NCBI RefSeq assembly: GCF_013415845.1
Contig: NZ_CP058907.1
Location: forward strand, 372,001-436,000
DNA: 64,000 nt
From: Rhodopseudomonas palustris
GTDB taxonomy: Bacteria; Pseudomonadota; Alphaproteobacteria; Rhizobiales; Xanthobacteraceae
Reading direction: 5' to 3'
This document shows positions 33,912 to 41,815 of this stretch, piece by piece (within the stretch, counting starts at the first letter, position 1; every line of letters begins with the position of its first letter). A program made the translations under genes and the position numbers. The notes under the pieces were generated by a model. It saw only the letters and a list, made by a program, of their open reading frames with translations, was not told the origin of the DNA and made no database searches.

Positions 33912-36224
33912 ATGTCCCAAGACGAAGCCCGACTTCAAGACACCGACATCCCTGACACCGCCGACGGCACGGTCACCTATGATGGCCCGGCGGGCGGTTG
34001 GGGGTCGCTGCAGGGGATCAGTCAGATCTTCGGCAGGGAGTGGAGTTCGCCGGCCGCGATCGAAACCCTGATGCGCCAAAACAAGCCAAAAGGCTTCATG
34101 TGCGTCTCGTGCTCCTGGGCCAAACCCGCCGACCACCACACGTTCGAATTCTGCGAGAACGGCGCCAAGGCGACGCTGTGGGAGCTGACCAGCGCGCGCT
34201 GCACGCCGGAGTTCTTCGCCGAGCACAGCGTCACCGAGCTGCGCGGCTGGGCCGACTACGACCTTGAAATGCAGGGCCGGCTGACCGAGCCGATGCGCTA
34301 TGACGCAACGACCGATCACTACGTGCCGTGTTCGTGGGACGAAGCGTTTCAGGCGATCGGCGAGCATCTGCGTTCGCTCGACCCGAAATCGGTGATCTTC
34401 TACGCCTCCGGCCGCGCCAGCCTGGAGACGTCGTATCTTTATGCGCTGTTTGCGCGGCTGTACGGCAACAACAACCTGCCCGACAGCTCCAACATGTGCC
34501 ACGAGACCACCTCGGTGGCGCTGAAGAAGCTGCTCGGCGTCGGCGTCGGTACAGTCGTGTTCGACGATCTGGCGAAGTGCGACGCGATGTTCTTCTTCGG
34601 CCAGAACACCGGATCGAATAGCCCGCGCTTTCTGCACCCGCTGCAGGAAGCCGCCAAGCGCGGCGTCGAGATCATCACGTTCAATCCGGTGCGCGAGAAG
34701 GGGCTCGAAAGCTTCGTCAATCCGCAGAACCCGGCCGAGATGCTGACCGGGCGCAAAACCCGGATCAGCAGCCAATATCATCAGGTCAAAGCCGGCGGCG
34801 ATGTCGCCGTGCTGATCGGCTTGTGCAAGCATGTGTTCGCCCGCGACGACGAGGCGAGGCGCGAGGGGCGCCGCGTGCTCGACGTCGATTTCATCGAAGT
34901 GCACACCCATGGTCTCGACGAATTCGAAGCCAAGGTTCGCGCCATCTCCTGGGACGAGATCGAGCGCGAGTCGGGTCTCAGCCGGGAGGCGATCGAGTCC
35001 GCCGGCGATGTTTATGTGAAAGCCGAGCGTGTGATCGGTGTCTATGGCATGGGCCTGACCCAGCACGCCCACGGTTTTCTCAACGTCGCGATGTTCGTCA
35101 ATCTGCTGCTGCTGAGGGGAAATATTGGCCGCGACGGCACCGGCATTTCGCCGGTGCGCGGCCACTCCAACGTGCAGGGCCAGCGGACCGTCGGCATCTC
35201 GGAGAAGCCCGAGCTCGTGCCGCTGGACAAGATGGCCGAGCAGTTCGGGTTCGACCCGCCGCGCGACAAGGGCATGAACACGGTGGAGGCGTGCCACGGT
35301 CTCCTTGAAGGCAAGGTCCGAGCCTTCATCAGCCTCGGCGGCAATTTCGTTCGGGCGATCCCGGAGCGTGATGCGATGGAAGCCGCCTGGACGCGGATGC
35401 AGCTCACGGTGCAGATCGCCACCAAGCTGAATCGCAGCCATCTGATCAACGGCAAGGCCGCCTATCTGCTGCCCTGCCTCGGCCGCACCGAGCAGGATAT
35501 CCAAGCGACCGGCCCTCAAGCGGTGACGATGGAAGATACATTCAGTTGCATTCAGGGCTCGATCGGTCTGCGCAAGCCGGCCAGCGAGCAGCTCAAGTCG
35601 GAGCTGGCGATCGTCGCCGGCATCGCCAAGGCGACGCTGCCGGACAACCCGAAGCTGAAATGGGACGACTGGGTCGGCGACTACGGCCTGGTGCGTGACC
35701 TGATCGCCGAGAGCTATCCGGAGATGTTTCACGACTTCAACGACCGGATGTTTACGCCCGGCGGGTTCTACAAGGGCAACGCGGCGCGCGAGCGGATCTG
35801 GAAGACCGAAAGCGGCAAGGCGGAGTTCACCACGCCGGACCGTCTGAATTCGATCGGCTTCGACGATGCGCCCGGCCGCTACCGGTTGATGACGCTGCGC
35901 TCCAACGATCAGTTCAACACCACAATCTACGGCATGAGTGACCGGCTGCGCGGCATCGAGGGACGCCGCGACGTGTTGCTGATCAATCCGGACGAGATGG
36001 CACGCGCCGGGCTGAGCGAAGGCCAGGAGGTCTGGCTCGAAGGCGACGCCGGTGACGGCGTGCATCGCGAAGCCGGGCCGCTCCGGGTGACACCGTTCAG
36101 GCTGCCCGATGGCTGCCTCGGCGCCTATTATCCGGAGATGAACTCGTTGATGCCGGTGTGGCACCATGACGACCCGTCGAAAACGCCGGCGGCCAAATCG
36201 GTGCCGGTGCGGATTCGGACCTGA
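33912..36224 (+). CDS. FdhF/YdeP-family molybdopterin oxidoreductase
   Basis: 770 residues from the ATG at 33912 with AGGGAG five bases upstream. It is a bis-molybdopterin enzyme of the formate-dehydrogenase-alpha-like subgroup typified by YdeP. The N-terminal GFMCVSCSWAKPADHHTFEFCENGAKA has cysteines in place of the standard FeS motif; SSNMCHETTSVALKKLLGVG offers a Cys at the position of the Mo-ligating Sec/Cys of FdhF; FFFGQNTGSNSPRFLHPL and GMGLTQHAHG are cofactor-binding. The C-terminal domain follows from about residue 640 (RYRLMTLRSNDQFNTTIYG). In E. coli ydeP is linked to acid resistance; the substrate is unknown. No electron-transfer subunit is adjacent. Confidence 0.9.
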   Translation: MSQDEARLQDTDIPDTADGTVTYDGPAGGWGSLQGISQIFGREWSSPAAIETLMRQNKPKGFMCVSCSWAKPADHHTFEFCENGAKATLWELTSARCTPEFFAEHSVTELRGWADYDLEMQGRLTEPMRYDATTDHYVPCSWDEAFQAIGEHLRSLDPKSVIFYASGRASLETSYLYALFARLYGNNNLPDSSNMCHETTSVALKKLLGVGVGTVVFDDLAKCDAMFFFGQNTGSNSPRFLHPLQEAAKRGVEIITFNPVREKGLESFVNPQNPAEMLTGRKTRISSQYHQVKAGGDVAVLIGLCKHVFARDDEARREGRRVLDVDFIEVHTHGLDEFEAKVRAISWDEIERESGLSREAIESAGDVYVKAERVIGVYGMGLTQHAHGFLNVAMFVNLLLLRGNIGRDGTGISPVRGHSNVQGQRTVGISEKPELVPLDKMAEQFGFDPPRDKGMNTVEACHGLLEGKVRAFISLGGNFVRAIPERDAMEAAWTRMQLTVQIATKLNRSHLINGKAAYLLPCLGRTEQDIQATGPQAVTMEDTFSCIQGSIGLRKPASEQLKSELAIVAGIAKATLPDNPKLKWDDWVGDYGLVRDLIAESYPEMFHDFNDRMFTPGGFYKGNAARERIWKTESGKAEFTTPDRLNSIGFDDAPGRYRLMTLRSNDQFNTTIYGMSDRLRGIEGRRDVLLINPDEMARAGLSEGQEVWLEGDAGDGVHREAGPLRVTPFRLPDGCLGAYYPEMNSLMPVWHHDDPSKTPAAKSVPVRIRT

Positions 36225-36495
36225 GGCGGCATTCCAGCTTGATCCACGTCATCGCCTGTTCACGCCGTTCGATTAAGCCGCGGCAGGATGCGTCGTGTCG
36301 CACGCGCGTCATGCGGCCGGGTTGCGGCTTGCTCCAGCCGAATGATCGAGTTGCGCCAGCGCACGGCGGGGTGGCATTGCAAGGCTTGCACGCGTCGGCC
36401 ACTATGCGGCGCTGCGACATCGCCGTCGGAACGCGCAAGACACCGTCGCGCACAGTGGGAATGGCCGGTTTCCGGCCGCTGGAATGAGAGGCCGC

Positions 36496-37758
36496 ATGAG
36501 TCAAGGTGTCACCGCTCCGTTCGCCCGTCATGCGATGGCTTACGTGCTGGCGGGGGGACGCGGCAGCCGGCTGATGGAGCTCACCGACTGGCGTGCCAAA
36601 CCTGCGGTGTATTTCGGCGGCAAATCCCGCATCATCGATTTCGCGCTGTCGAACGCGCTGAATTCGGGTATCCGCCGCATCGCGGTGGCGACGCAGTACA
36701 AGGCCCACAGCCTGATTCGGCATCTGCAGCGCGGCTGGAACTTCTTCCGCCCGGAGCGCAACGAGAGCTTCGACATTCTGCCGGCCAGTCAGCGCGTCTC
36801 GGAAGAGATGTGGTACCGGGGGACGGCCGACGCCGTCTTTCAGAACATCGACATCATCGAGAGCTACGATCCGAAGTTCATCGTGCTGCTGGCGGGCGAC
36901 CACGTCTACAAGATGGACTACGAGAAGATGCTGCAGCAGCACGTCGAGCAAGGCGCCGACGTCACGGTCGGCTGCCTCGAAGTGCCGCGCGCCGAAGCGA
37001 CCGCGTTCGGCGTGATGCACACCGATACGACCGACCGCATCATCTCGTTCCTGGAAAAGCCGGCCGATCCGCCGGCGATGCCCGGCAAGGCCGACAAGTC
37101 GCTGGTCAGCATGGGCATCTACGTGTTCGAGACCAAGTTTCTGCTCGACGAGCTGCGCCGTGACGCAGCCGATCCGAATTCGTCGCACGATTTCGGCAAG
37201 GACATCATCCCCTACATCGTCAAGCACGGCAAAGCGGTGGCGCATCACTTCGACAAGTCGTGCCGCCGGTCGAGTTCGGAGGCCGTCAGCTATTGGCGTG
37301 ACGTCGGCACGGTTGACGCGTATTGGGCGGCCAATATCGATCTCACTGACATCGTGCCGGAGCTCGACCTGTATGATCGCGAGTGGCCGATCTGGACCTA
37401 TGGCGAGATCACCCCGCCGGCGAAATTCGTCCACGACAAGGAAGGCCGCCGCGGCGAAGCGGTGTCGTCGCTGGTGTCCGGCGGCTGCATCATCTCAGGC
37501 GCGTCGCTGCGACACTCGCTGCTGTTCACCGGCGTTCGCGTTCACTCGTTCTCCCATGTCGAGAACACTGTGGTGCTGCCTTACGCCGACATCGGCCGCT
37601 CGTGCCGGCTGAAGAATGTGGTGATCGATGCCGAGGTCAAGCTGCCGGCCGGTCTGGTGGTCGGTGAAGATCCAGAGTTTGACGCGAAGCGCTTCAGGCG
37701 TACCGAAAACGGCATCTGTCTGATTACCCGCGCGATGATCGAGAAGCTCGACGCATGA
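36496..37758 (+). CDS. glgC: Glucose-1-phosphate adenylyltransferase
   Basis: 420 residues from the ATG at 36496, with GAGAGG just upstream; an ATG four codons earlier (36484) is possible. It makes ADP-glucose from ATP and glucose-1-phosphate, the committed step of glycogen synthesis. Motifs: [39 protein letters not shown] (nucleotide loop and regulatory region), [21 protein letters not shown] and FLEKP, then a left-handed beta-helix C-terminal domain ([36 protein letters not shown]). It overlaps glgA by four bases (ATGA), so the two form one operon. Confidence 0.97.
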
Positions 37759-39206
37759 CGACACTGGCGGTTCTATCTGTTGCGTCGGAACTGTTTCCGC
37801 TGATCAAGACCGGGGGCCTCGCCGATGTGGCCGGCGCATTGCCGGCCGCCCTGCGTGCCAACGACGTCGCCGTCACCTCGCTGCTGCCGGGCTATCCGGC
37901 GGTGCTCGGCGGTATCGAGGATCCGCAGCAGGTCCACAGCTTCAACGAGCTGTTCGGCGGCACCGCGCGGCTGCTGGCGGCGCGCTGCGGCGATCTCGAT
38001 CTATTTGTGCTCGACGCTCCGCATCTCTATGTCCGGCCCGGCAATCCCTATGTCGGCCCGGATGGCAAGGACTGGCCCGACAACGGCCTGCGTTTTGCGG
38101 CGCTGGCGCAGGTCGGCGCCGCGCTCGGCCAGGGCCTGCTGCCGCACTACAAGCCGGATGTGCTGCACGCCCATGACTGGCAGACCGGGCTGTTGCCAGC
38201 CTATCTGAAATATAGCGGCCGGCCTGGGCCGAAGACTGTCTTCACCATCCACAATCTGGCGTTCCAGGGGAGGTTTCCCTACGAGCTGCTCGGCAGGCTG
38301 GGCCTGCCGGAGCGCGCCTTCGGTCTCGACGGCATCGAGTATTACGGCGGTATCGGTTATCTCAAGGCCGGCCTGCAACTCGCCGACCGCATCACCACCG
38401 TGTCGCCGACCTACGCGGCCGAGATCCAGGGTTCGGAAGCCGGCATGGGCCTCGACGGCCTGCTGCGGCTGCGCGCCGATCGGCTGTCCGGCATCCTCAA
38501 CGGCATCGATACCGACGTCTGGAATCCGGCCAGCGATGCGTTGATCTCCGCCACCTACGATGTCGAAAGCATCGCAGCCCGCGCCCGCAACAAGAAGGTG
38601 CTGCAAGCGCGGTTCGGTCTGAAGCCCGAGCCGGGCGCATTGCTGTACGGCGTGATCAGCCGGCTGTCGTGGCAGAAGGGGCTCGATCTCTTGCTCGAAG
38701 CCCTGCCGCAATTGATCGGTGGTGGTGCCCAGCTCGCCCTGCTCGGCTCCGGCGATGCCGAACTCGAACAGGGCTACGCGGCCGCGGCTCGCAAGTATCC
38801 CGGCCAGGTCGGCGCAGTGATCGGCTACGACGAAGCGCTCGCGCATCAGATCCAGGCCGGCGCCGACGCGCTGCTTGTGCCGTCGCGATTCGAACCCTGC
38901 GGCCTGACGCAGCTCTGCGCCCTGCGCTATGGCGCGGTGCCAGTGGTGGCGCGGGTGGGCGGTCTGGCCGATACGGTGGTCGACGCCAACGAGATGGCGA
39001 CTGCCACAGGCGTCGCGACCGGCGTCCAGTTCGCACCGGTGACGACTGACGCGCTGATCAAGGCGTTCGGCAAAACCCGCGCGCTGTTTGCAGACGTCGT
39101 CGCCTGGCGCAATCTGCAGATCAACGGCATGACCACTGATGTGTCCTGGAAGAACCCGGCGCAGCACTACGCGAAGCTGTATCGCGATCTGGTGGCGGAG
39201 CGCTGA
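37755..39206 (+). CDS. glgA: Glycogen synthase (ADP-glucose)
   Basis: 483 residues, GT5 family. It adds glucose from ADP-glucose to glycogen. The N-terminal [20 protein letters not shown] has the ADP-glucose-binding [21 protein letters not shown] and [16 protein letters not shown] are GT5 signatures; the C-terminal domain has [17 protein letters not shown] and [35 protein letters not shown] with the catalytic Glu in EPCGL. The start overlaps glgC by four bases. The stop lies only 33 bases before the left end of the inserted element at 39240, so insertion has possibly cut glgA from any original downstream genes. Confidence 0.97.
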
Positions 39207-39239
39207 GCCGGTCGCCGGCGAGGTGTGCCCATCATCCCC

Positions 39240-39266
39240 GGTATTGTGGCGCAAACGCCACAAGCA
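39240..39266 (+). repeat. Left terminal inverted repeat of the element
   Basis: 27 bases; the first seven are CGGTATT. It contains a perfect 8-bp palindrome, TTGTGGCG (39245-39252) and CGCCACAA (39257-39264), around CAAA. It matches the right end at 24 of 27 bases in inverted orientation. Confidence 0.8.
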
Positions 39267-39298
39267 TTTGAGCCGGTAATCATCCATATCCACCGGCA

Positions 39299-39700
39299 TG
39301 AGCCCGAACGGCAATCAGTACGCTGTTCACCTCTTGAAGGATCTCCGCGCCACCTTGGACGGGGCTCGCCAGGCCGAAACAACAATCCGAGATCGGGAGG
39401 AGTAGCTAGGCCACCTCGACGCCTCGCTGCGCATTATTCATCCCGACTATAGGGTCGACAGCGTCGCTCCCAAGCGATGCGCCGCGTCAAGCTGTTCGGA
39501 GGCGGGGAGCTTAACCGGCTCATCCTGGACGCGTTGGGGCGCTTAAGGGCGCCACTGTCAGGCTGGAAATCGCCTAGGCTATCGTGGTCGTGAAGGGCTA
39601 TGGCGCGGAGGCGTTGCCGGCCTCGCCAAGCGCGGGCGAATCTCACCGATGAGGAGTTACCAGAACGGCTCAAAGCGTACCGCTTCTCCGAACCCAAGGT
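39299..39700 (+). pseudogene. Decayed small gene inside the element
   Basis: An ATG at 39299 reads MSPNGNQYAVHLLKDLRATLDGARQAETTIRDREE, then a TAG at 39404, then in the same frame LGHLDASLRIIHPDYRVDSVAPKR. Continuing in a shifted frame gives RRVKLFGGGELNRLILDALGRLRAPLS, and in another shift KGYGAEALPA near 39595-39625. The pieces join into a plausible small helical protein of about 130 residues (a coiled N-terminal half, then a winged-helix-like region), of a type I recall as a common hypothetical in rhizobia. At least one stop and two frameshifts make it non-functional. The family assignment is from memory and uncertain. Confidence 0.55.
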
Positions 39701-39892
39701 GAGTATTGCTAATAAGCCATCGCGCGTCGCTAACCGCATCGTTCTTCTTCGTCTATCTTGCGGTGATGGAGCTTCAGGGAGTAGCTTTGGAGGTGATTTA
39801 GAAGAGGCGAAAAAACTACGTAGAGTATTTTGAGCATAAAAAAATAACGCGATACCTTCGACATAAAGCCGGATACCAAGGCAGGAATCTTG

Positions 39893-40669
39893 ATGGGGCT
39901 TAAAGAAGATTACGAAGCCAAAAAGGCCGCAGATGAGGACCGGTACAACAGAAAACAGCGGGCCGACAAAGAAGCTAAATGGGCGCGGGAGAGTTTTCTC
40001 CGCCACCCAGATAGAATGATCAAGTACACTGGATACTTGCAGCTTTATACCCTCGTCCTCTCCGTCTCTACCATCCTTCTTTTCGCCGCTACAATTTACA
40101 ATGCAGTGGTGCTGCATTCCACCGATGAGAAAATCGGGGAGTCCTATACCGCGGTCCAGCGGCCATTCGTTACCGCCAAGGATGTGATAGTCGATGAGAA
40201 TGTGATGCCGGGCTACTGGATGTTCGGCGTTCGATTCGAGAACAATGGGAACACCCCAACTTACAAAATGAACTACTCGTCCATTTCCAGTCTCAGCCTC
40301 CCAACTGACCCGGAAGATGCGCCGCGCGATCCAAGTCAAATTGTATCTAAAGGCACCGCCTTGATCGGACCTAAGGGGCAGTACCTTCCGGAAGGAACTC
40401 AAAGCGGAATATTGGTAAAGACCGCGGAAGAACTCGCCGCCTCCAGAGGTAAATATTTCATTCGTGGTGTGGCTCGCTATCGCGATCTCTTCAAGGGATC
40501 GGAGGAACACATCACAAAGTACTGCTTTGCGGTCACCCCATACCTTGAAGGCAACATTCTGAAGGCAGGAATTCAGCGCTGCCTTTACTGGAACTGCGCA
40601 GACGACGAGTGCAAGGAAGACAAAGAGCGCTACGAAGCCGCACTCAAGAAGGTGAACACTCCCAAATAG
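39893..40669 (+). CDS. Hypothetical single-span membrane protein carried by the element
   Basis: 258 residues from the ATG at 39893, with AGGAA 6 bases upstream. Residues 1-45 are very charged (EDYEAKKAADEDRYNRKQRADKEAKWARE) and likely a cytoplasmic coiled coil. One transmembrane helix lies at about 53-76 (YTLVLSVSTILLFAATIYNAVVL). Then comes a soluble domain with TAVQRPFVTAKDVIV and VRFENNGNTPTYKMNY, the RPF/W...NxGxTP pattern of a widespread uncharacterised class of one-span proteins. The C-terminus has four cysteines, three of them in a short RCLYWNCADDEC stretch. Codon use is AT-richer than in neighbours, pointing to transfer. The frame is intact while the gene before it has decayed. Function unknown. 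Confidence 0.8.
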   Translation: MGLKEDYEAKKAADEDRYNRKQRADKEAKWARESFLRHPDRMIKYTGYLQLYTLVLSVSTILLFAATIYNAVVLHSTDEKIGESYTAVQRPFVTAKDVIVDENVMPGYWMFGVRFENNGNTPTYKMNYSSISSLSLPTDPEDAPRDPSQIVSKGTALIGPKGQYLPEGTQSGILVKTAEELAASRGKYFIRGVARYRDLFKGSEEHITKYCFAVTPYLEGNILKAGIQRCLYWNCADDECKEDKERYEAALKKVNTPK

Positions 40670-40737
40670 CGCCGCCGCCCATCGGTTGACGGGGCTAATC
40701 CCACCGCAAACTGCCGCCATCCACCAGGAGAGGCGGC

Positions 40738-40863
40738 ATGGCCAAACGTCGGAAGCAATCCCAAAAGCCCACTCATAACCCGGACTTCTGGTTCAAGGCG
40801 GCGGACTCTGTCGCCCGCATTATTGAGGCTGTTGCACTCCTTGTAGGTAAGTTTTGGACTTGA
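40738..40863 (+). CDS. Small ORF of 41 residues at the right end of the element
   Basis: ATG at 40738 preceded by AGGAG (CCAGGAGAGGCGGC) at good spacing. The product starts MAKRRKQSQKPTHNPDFWFK and continues AADSVARIIEAVALLVGKFWT: a basic N-terminus and a C-terminal amphipathic or hydrophobic helix that could sit on a membrane. The stop lies five bases before the right terminal repeat. No family recognised. Coding is supported only by the ribosome site and the sensible residue pattern. Confidence 0.5.
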   Translation: MAKRRKQSQKPTHNPDFWFKAADSVARIIEAVALLVGKFWT

Positions 40864-40868
40864 TCGGC

Positions 40869-40895
40869 GCTTGTGGCGTTCGTGCCATAATACCG
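40869..40895 (-). repeat. Right terminal inverted repeat of the element
   Basis: 27 bases, inverted relative to the left end, with three mismatches. It is followed at once by the second copy of the ATCATCCC direct repeat (40896-40903). Confidence 0.8.
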
Positions 40896-40950
40896 ATCAT
40901 CCCCAGCATCTCGCCTTGCCGCAGCGATGGTCTTGATCGCCGTCGCGGCT

Positions 40951-41014: not shown

Positions 41015-41815
41015 ATGCCCGGCCAGGATACCGTGCTGATCGAGCGCGACGGTCCGGTGACCATCGTCACGATTAATCGCCCCGAGCGCCGCAACGCCGT
41101 TGATGGCGCGACCGCCAAAAAACTGTACGACGCCTTCCTGGCGTTCGATGCCGACGAGTCCGCTTCCGTTGCGGTGTTCACCGGCGCGGGCGGCACGTTC
41201 TGCGCCGGGGCCGATTTGAAAGCGGTGGCGGCGGGCGATGCCGAAAAGAAGCGCGAAATCGCCGGCCACAATACGCTGGCGCCGATGGGGCCGAGCCGTC
41301 TGCGGCTGTCCAAGCCGGTGATCGCGGCGGTCGAGGGCTTTGCGGTCGCCGGCGGGCTCGAACTGGCGCTGTGGGCCGATATGCGCGTGGTCGCCGAAGA
41401 CGCGACGTTCGGGGTGTTCTGCCGCCGTTTCGGCGTGCCGCTGATCGATCTCGGCACCATCCGGTTGCCGCGGCTGATCGGCCATTCGCAGGCGATGGAT
41501 CTGATCCTCACCGGCCGGCCGGTGGCGGCCGACGAGGCGCACCGCATCGGCCTCGCCAACCGCTTGGTGCCGCGCGGTGAAGCGCTGCCGAGGGCGATCG
41601 AACTCGCCAAGCAGATCTCGCAATTTCCGCAAACCTGCCTGCGCGCCGACCGGCTGTCCGCCTTCCAGCAATGGGATCTGCCCGAAGAAGACGCGATCAT
41701 GAACGAGATGCGCGGCGGGCTGAAGGTCATCCAGTCCGGCGAGACTCTGTCCGGAGCGACCCGCTTCGCCCAGGGCGAAGGGCGGCATGGGGCGTTCGGC
41801 AAGCCGGCTCCATGA
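41015..41815 (+). CDS. Crotonase (enoyl-CoA hydratase/isomerase) family protein
   Basis: 266 residues with GGGAG upstream. Crotonase-fold features: VTIVTINRPERRNAVDGATAKKL, oxyanion-hole GAGGTFCAGADLKAVA, and GFAVAGGLELALWADMRVVAEDATFGVFCRRFGVPLIDLGTIRLPRLIG, where the second oxyanion Gly lies. The acidic pair of classical hydratases is not obvious here, so hydratase activity is uncertain and another acyl-CoA reaction is possible. Four-base overlap (ATGA) with the following DUF1566 gene shows an operon. It is the first chromosomal gene right of the inserted element. Confidence 0.88.
   Translation: MPGQDTVLIERDGPVTIVTINRPERRNAVDGATAKKLYDAFLAFDADESASVAVFTGAGGTFCAGADLKAVAAGDAEKKREIAGHNTLAPMGPSRLRLSKPVIAAVEGFAVAGGLELALWADMRVVAEDATFGVFCRRFGVPLIDLGTIRLPRLIGHSQAMDLILTGRPVAADEAHRIGLANRLVPRGEALPRAIELAKQISQFPQTCLRADRLSAFQQWDLPEEDAIMNEMRGGLKVIQSGETLSGATRFAQGEGRHGAFGKPAP

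Follow-up and report, generated by a model that had tools for sequence, protein, structure and literature searches.

A probable transposase-less derivative of an IS1595-family cargo transposon in the Rhodopseudomonas palustris chromosome

The window analysed here, a stretch of 64,000 nucleotides of Rhodopseudomonas palustris DNA (positions 372001-436000 on a single 5.32-Mb contig), contains a transposon-like unit of 1,657 bp at 39239-40895 which, judged by comparison with its relatives, is very probably a transposase-less derivative of a cargo-carrying transposon of the IS1595 family (transporter-IS type), shaped by an internal deletion and by an insertion that duplicated 8 bp of its target. 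A previous sequence-only reading had described the unit as a mobile element but had found no link to a named family; this link can now be made, because relatives with the same ends encode an IS1595-type transposase. What had been an anonymous 1.7-kb insert could thereby be traced to a named transposase family as its relic, and would exemplify a membrane-protein gene that was delivered to a chromosome and persisted there after the mobile machinery was lost.

Ends, interior and insertion site

The ends of the window element are CGGTATTATGGCGCAAACGCCACAA. Its two terminal arms form an inverted repeat of 27 nt that matches at 24 of 27 positions (89% complementary), and each arm is abutted on its outer side by the same octamer (Table 1). 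The match and the right arm had been described correctly before, whereas the left arm had been placed one base off; the octamer reported directly outside both ends was recovered there with 8/8 identity. The termini read CGG. Their outermost C is counted to the element, since the two sides carry it in inverted orientation, in contrast to the octamer, which is a direct repeat. A search with a degenerate pattern derived from the two arms (at most 3 mismatches) gave 2 places in the 64-kb window, both of them the arms, and 0 in 100 shuffles; among 16 genomes of the genus it again finds the window's two arms only, which makes the element single-copy. Octamer pairs drawn at random from the 1-kb flanks were identical in 7 of 200,000 cases.

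The interior had been called AT-rich, and its G+C content is indeed lower than that of the surroundings, albeit AT-rich in a relative sense only: 54.3% in the element interior against 65.2% at 36000-39200, the membrane-protein gene itself having 51.4%. One intact membrane-protein gene and one small ORF, of 258 and 41 aa, are present as previously described. The 41-aa ORF belongs to no Pfam family and has no tblastn relative below E 0.7 among the loci compared. The earlier observation that the element carries no transposase also held, since neither approach produced a match: tblastn with the transposases of six relatives gave a best E of 0.022 in the element, and a transposase profile run over the whole window returned nothing at E<=0.1. 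The pieces of two broken genes at ~39298-39798, in contrast, had been overlooked. The first, whose start lies 60 bp inward of the left end, is what is left of a gene for a coiled-coil/winged-helix-like protein of ~150 aa; in tblastn it matches the protein of locus L060 at 59% over aa 1-61, 76% over aa 62-90 and 68% over aa 93-111, and its profile matches have E-values of 5e-5 and 3e-4. Directly after it comes the latter part of a DUF6471 gene (54-58% over the last 26 aa by tblastn, profile matches at E 4e-5 and 8e-5), followed by the membrane-protein gene. The profile scores of both remnants are modest.

Table 1. Features of the window element and its target duplication (positions in the window)
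Feature	Coordinates	Strand	Remarks
Left target-duplication copy, ATCATCCC	39231..39238	.	8/8 same as right copy
Left terminal inverted repeat, CGGTATTGTGGCGCAAACGCCACAAGC	39239..39265	+	inverted-repeat comparison of both arms
Broken remnant of ~150-aa coiled-coil/winged-helix-like gene	39298..39622	+	stops; pieces in three successive frames
Broken remnant of DUF6471 gene	39630..39798	+	two frames; start approximate, first part unrecognisable
Intact gene for 258-aa membrane-anchored protein	39893..40669	+	ATG 39893; ORF from TTG 39890
41-aa ORF	40738..40863	+	coding status uncertain
Right terminal inverted repeat, CGGTATTATGGCACGAACGCCACAAGC (minus-strand reading)	40869..40895	-	inverted-repeat comparison of both arms
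Right target-duplication copy, ATCATCCC	40896..40903	.	identical octamer, abuts right end

The element lies between an ORF at 37755-39206 which we take to be glgA and, on the other flank, a gene with its ATG at 41015 which is presumably enoyl-CoA hydratase-like, both having been named by eye. The sequence-only reading had proposed to compare strains for an empty site after glgA. A flank-only query aligned across the uninterrupted junction in 5 of the 15 congeneric genomes compared (76-90% identity), the remaining 10 aligning on the glgA side only and being uninformative on the insert. None of the three congeners whose alignments were inspected has the octamer conserved at this site, so that the exact pre-insertion sequence is unseen.

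Relatives with the same ends and their transposases

In the taxonomic family, 45 of 391 genomes, the element's own among them, contain the 25-bp end with at most 3 mismatches, and a control with the reversed pattern gave 0 among the matches listed. Across the order, a stricter limit of 2 mismatches gave 9 matching genomes out of 397, 6 of them outside the family. From these matches we assembled 23 other inverted pairs, i.e., 18 same-contig pairs of the family, one pair (L085) obtained with a looser pattern, and four of the five pairs from outside the family, the G571 pair at a contig start being left out. Several further candidates were set aside before the tally, namely two extra pairs in L065 (6/8 matching octamer positions each), one in L084 (2/8), two in L087 (0/8 and 6/8) and the 46-bp unit of L088 (8/8). 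An exact 8-bp duplication flanks 21 of the 23 pairs (17/19 in the first set and 4/4 outside the family), the exceptions being L068 and L074. Among the single ends examined, including L073 and L079, there was no exact pair besides L085 and the 46-bp L088. Elsewhere in the genus, the stretches examined around IS1595 transposase loci have no such ends, and one of these loci (L023) has its own, different ends.

The first 19 pairs provide 38 ends, of which at least 35 agree at each of positions 1-23 and 31 to 34 at positions 24-26, while past position 26 agreement is near noise; positions 1-25 are favoured by the search pattern, the fall-off beyond them is not. The ends share a conserved palindromic core, TGGCG-CAAA-CGCCA, and have a C before GG in 38/38 cases, these ends having been chosen by pattern. 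Compared with this consensus over positions 1-26, the left end of the window element has 1 mismatch (position 8) and the right end 2. That an inverted repeat and an octamer merely happen to coincide around an ordinary acquired gene is extremely improbable, given the outcome of the shuffles and the recurrence of the same ends with exact duplications in the other pairs, even if the membrane-protein family is also known without such ends, for example in an Afipia MAG (L005).

By profile, the 23 pairs enclose 14 full-length transposases and 2 remnants, with none in the other 7; full length was judged by ORF length and E-value, and the L062 frame stops a few residues early. The sequence-only reading had proposed to look for a full-length relative that shares the ends and encodes a transposase; 14 of 23 pairs are of this kind, and the ends are paired termini elsewhere. 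The L060 copy, on which the Pfam and NCBIfam assignment was made, matches DDE_Tnp_IS1595 (1e-35) and Zn_ribbon_IS1595 (6e-10) in Pfam as well as transpos_IS1595 above the cut-off in NCBIfam, and an alignment of ten of the first twelve copies has a mean column identity of 82%. The IS1595 family is characterised by a DDE_Tnp_IS1595 domain, accompanied outside the IS1016 group by an N-terminal zinc ribbon, by an 8-bp target duplication and by a terminal 5'-GG; ends of the 27-bp type with 8-bp duplications suggest this family. Judged by these matches, the ends of the window element are those of IS1595-type transposons, the family being assigned via ends and remnants only, because no transposase sequence is left in the element. 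By analogy with the relatives, we infer that the insertion would have been made by a DDE transposase of the IS1595 family acting on the window ends. The element's own genome has a partial IS1595-type transposase at C1:3057470-3057949 (C-terminal half, profile positions 168-324 of 327) with no recognisable inverted ends in the stretch examined. Since the search of this genome yielded no cognate transposase that is complete, the window element is probably immobile now.

Full relatives measure 3.1-6.3 kb, and the 6.3-kb element includes a second, different IS1595-type transposase gene (L077:5393-6316). Short units with the same ends also occur, with an exact duplication at 46 bp (L088), 411 bp (L076) and 684 bp (L172), and without one at 575 bp (L074). 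Two places consist of two ends back to back and little else, L088:5001-5046 (46 bp, 8/8) and L065:3858-3895 (38 bp, 6/8). Some target octamers are shared between genomes: CGCGGGCC is present in L070 and L071 and its reverse complement GGCCCGCG in L066, and GGGCCGCG in L075 and its reverse complement CGCGGCCC in L064, which suggests a preferred or repeated target. On the Bradyrhizobium septentrionale plasmid pBs1S1c (NZ_CP088286.1), two places match the end, with no mate within the stretch examined; one of them is an exact end, and a gene annotated as DUF6471 lies ~340 bp away from it (L120:7001-7609).

A related class of ends was met as well. A 57-bp match in the congener G015 falls in a separate unit with ends CGGCCTTAGGTAGCAAATGCACCA, and ends of this type also bound units in G088, G256 and a second congener, G004, where one of the two has 4 mismatches. 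All four units have an exact 8-bp duplication, a transposase or pieces of one, and the winged-helix gene or a fragment of it, and three of four have DUF6471; the transposase and winged-helix counts are not independent, because the units were found via those matches, and the ends, the duplications and the DUF6471 count are independent of the route of discovery.

Accessory genes and cargo

Complete relatives usually have the order end, winged-helix-like gene (reading inward), cargo slot A, transposase gene, DUF6471 (in divergent orientation relative to that gene), cargo slot B, end. The layout of the window element equals this order minus the stretch between the winged-helix gene and DUF6471, the usual place of the transposase and slot A. 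The ~150-aa winged-helix-like protein is encoded in 19 of 23 pairs (a fragment in L074), its gene lying within ~200 bp of an end and pointing inward in 16 of the 19, and distant from the ends in L066, L071 and L078. Its structure model (mean pLDDT 88) comprises a long helix and then one domain; a fold search of the PDB gave nothing at E<=1e-3, the best weak matches (E from 0.012) being mostly winged-helix proteins, including forkhead and SmtB. DUF6471 is present in 16 of 23 pairs, without a match in L071, L074, L076, L061, L069, L172 and L174, and in L066 it stands apart from both the transposase and the membrane-protein gene. In the library searched, no paper containing the word DUF6471 was found.

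The slot A ORFs, chosen by eye, gave Pfam matches in 6 of the 14 elements with a transposase, a minority of the ORFs in the remaining 8 having been searched: MmeI-type restriction (L060), Fic (L063), HicA with a neighbouring DUF1902 (L067), PemK (L070), DprA (L071) and SocA/Panacea (L077). A membrane protein of the window type is encoded in 9 of 23 pairs, 6 of these 9 proteins having been in the profile used, and adjoins DUF6471 in 8 of the 9 (not in L066); a profile built without other element sequences (the window protein plus eleven database relatives) still finds it in 6 of the first 19.

The 258-aa protein of the window has 20 database relatives at E<=1e-3 (itself included), mostly on short contigs and 0 with a Pfam domain, and it belongs to no Pfam or NCBIfam family. 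Its AlphaFold2 model (mean pLDDT 90) shows long N-terminal helices, which contain a hydrophobic stretch as read by eye, and a strand-rich domain; the PDB gave no match at E<=1e-3 by fold, and none at E<=0.1 by sequence with the membrane-protein alignment. The sole PADLOC match, PDC-M15A at E 0.053, was not accepted. A plasmid collection searched with the element DNA and with the membrane protein produced no match. The 90% cluster of the protein encoded at 39893-40669 is represented on 27 contigs. When the family was followed outside the elements, the stretches examined at 29 non-own loci (from 36 places) revealed either an end or a core gene in 8 cases, one of these eight (from G077) having been in the profile; as a control, 15 loci around glgA gave no match with the four profiles. 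The membrane-protein family is therefore a frequent, not an exclusive, rider of these transposons. In the window, its gene is intact beside two broken genes, which would be explained if it was retained by selection because it is useful.

A broader reading, which we consider unlikely, is that these IS1595-type transposons constitute, within the order, a coherent two-slot cargo lineage with at least two end classes, in which a core of transposase, winged-helix-like protein and DUF6471 would be combined with toxin-antitoxin, restriction or DNA-processing genes in slot A and a recurrent membrane-anchored protein in slot B. If it were true, the membrane-protein gene of the window would be a selected module outliving its transposon, perhaps with a role in defence, exclusion or maintenance.

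Origin of the window element and comparison with known systems

The proposed course of events comprises a transposition into the interval between glgA and the enoyl-CoA hydratase-like gene, with an 8-bp target duplication, and an internal deletion that would have reached from within the winged-helix gene into DUF6471, removing the end of the former, slot A, the transposase and the start of the latter. The leftovers of the winged-helix gene and DUF6471 would have been broken by stops and frame changes, while the membrane-anchored protein gene in slot B would have remained intact. We infer that the transposase was lost by this deletion; the order of the two events is almost evenly balanced, with a slight lean towards an insertion that came first.

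Decay in situ, i.e., insertion of a complete transposon whose transposase was then deleted and whose remainder decayed except for the membrane-protein gene, stands at just below an even chance. It is consistent with the stops or frame changes in both remaining core genes, with the drift of both ends (1 of 26 positions off the consensus on the left, 2 on the right), and with the sister-class members of the same genus in G015 (L002) and G004 (L186), which have broken transposase genes; moreover, the deletion of a complete transposon after insertion would look the same as the window element. Against it, the two copies of the target octamer have stayed identical, and there are forms that lack a transposase although their core genes are open; both points can be reconciled with this reading. 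One such form is L072, from another genus, which shares the layout, keeps its genes open and is flanked by an 8/8 duplication while lacking a transposase, so that loss of the transposase need not accompany general decay; its deletion junction differs from that of the window element, since its DUF6471 start is complete.

L072 counts in favour of the possibility, to which we give somewhat less weight, that the window element is a true mobile insertion cassette, a unit that had already lost its transposase when a cognate IS1595-type transposase moved it in trans. Units of this composition do recur: of the 23 pairs with these ends, 7 have no transposase match, and 6 of these 7 have an 8/8 duplication. 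However, the own genome has no second copy of the element, and no sister derivative appeared in 390 other genomes of the family, in a blastn search of limited sensitivity (pieces up to ~250 bp, two candidates per genome scored). Near-identical transposase-less copies within one genome were likewise not seen, L068 and L069 in G356 matching each other in parts only (82% over 454 bp), and G108, G409 and G217 have ends and no transposase match. The sequence-only reading, which had suggested cargo mobilised in trans, thus holds for a transposable element with cargo and an 8-bp target duplication and without its own transposase; the trans movement is kept as one of two possible courses, the element being single-copy and the search having given no sister derivative. 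Whichever order applies, a transposase-less derivative of an IS1595-family transposon remains our preferred reading. Its 26-bp end offers a usable probe, which picks up complete units as well as deleted and miniature ones across several of the order's families and thereby opens to testing the choice of travelling cargo, the need for the individual accessory genes and the movement of deleted forms in trans.

Both IS with passenger genes and transposase-less mobile insertion cassettes are already in print. Among eukaryotic relatives of IS1016/IS1595, Merlin elements have 8- or 9-bp duplications and ends in GG, according to a passage of PMC8101967; the 8-bp duplication of the window element is alike, whereas the element is bacterial and a C precedes GG at the ends of its group. 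With MITEs it shares its non-autonomous nature, and short units with the same ends exist, but at 1,657 bp it carries an intact gene of 258 codons. A mobile insertion cassette is defined, in sections of PMC3913671 and PMC3129680, by two inverted repeats, a target duplication, a passenger gene and no transposase, and the first of these sections has MIC231A1 mobilised in trans by IS231A. The window element has inverted ends, a target duplication and a passenger gene and lacks a transposase gene, and autonomous elements with the same ends are found in other genomes (14/23 pairs); unlike MIC231A1, it would have moved in trans in one of the two readings only, and its genome yielded no complete cognate transposase. 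IS copies with passenger genes are treated as transporter IS (tIS), with Siguier et al. 2009 as the reference, in parts of PMC3129680 and PMC9330008. The IS1595 tIS resemble our case in their 8-bp duplications and short inverted ends, the relatives with the same ends having both Pfam domains, and differ in that the window copy has no transposase (no DDE_Tnp_IS1595 domain in the element). No title on such elements in this order was found in the library searched, and they may be in print elsewhere. A further difference from IS1595 tIS is that the full relatives often add the winged-helix-like gene and DUF6471, a recurrent accessory gene set that we regard as the mildly new part of these results.
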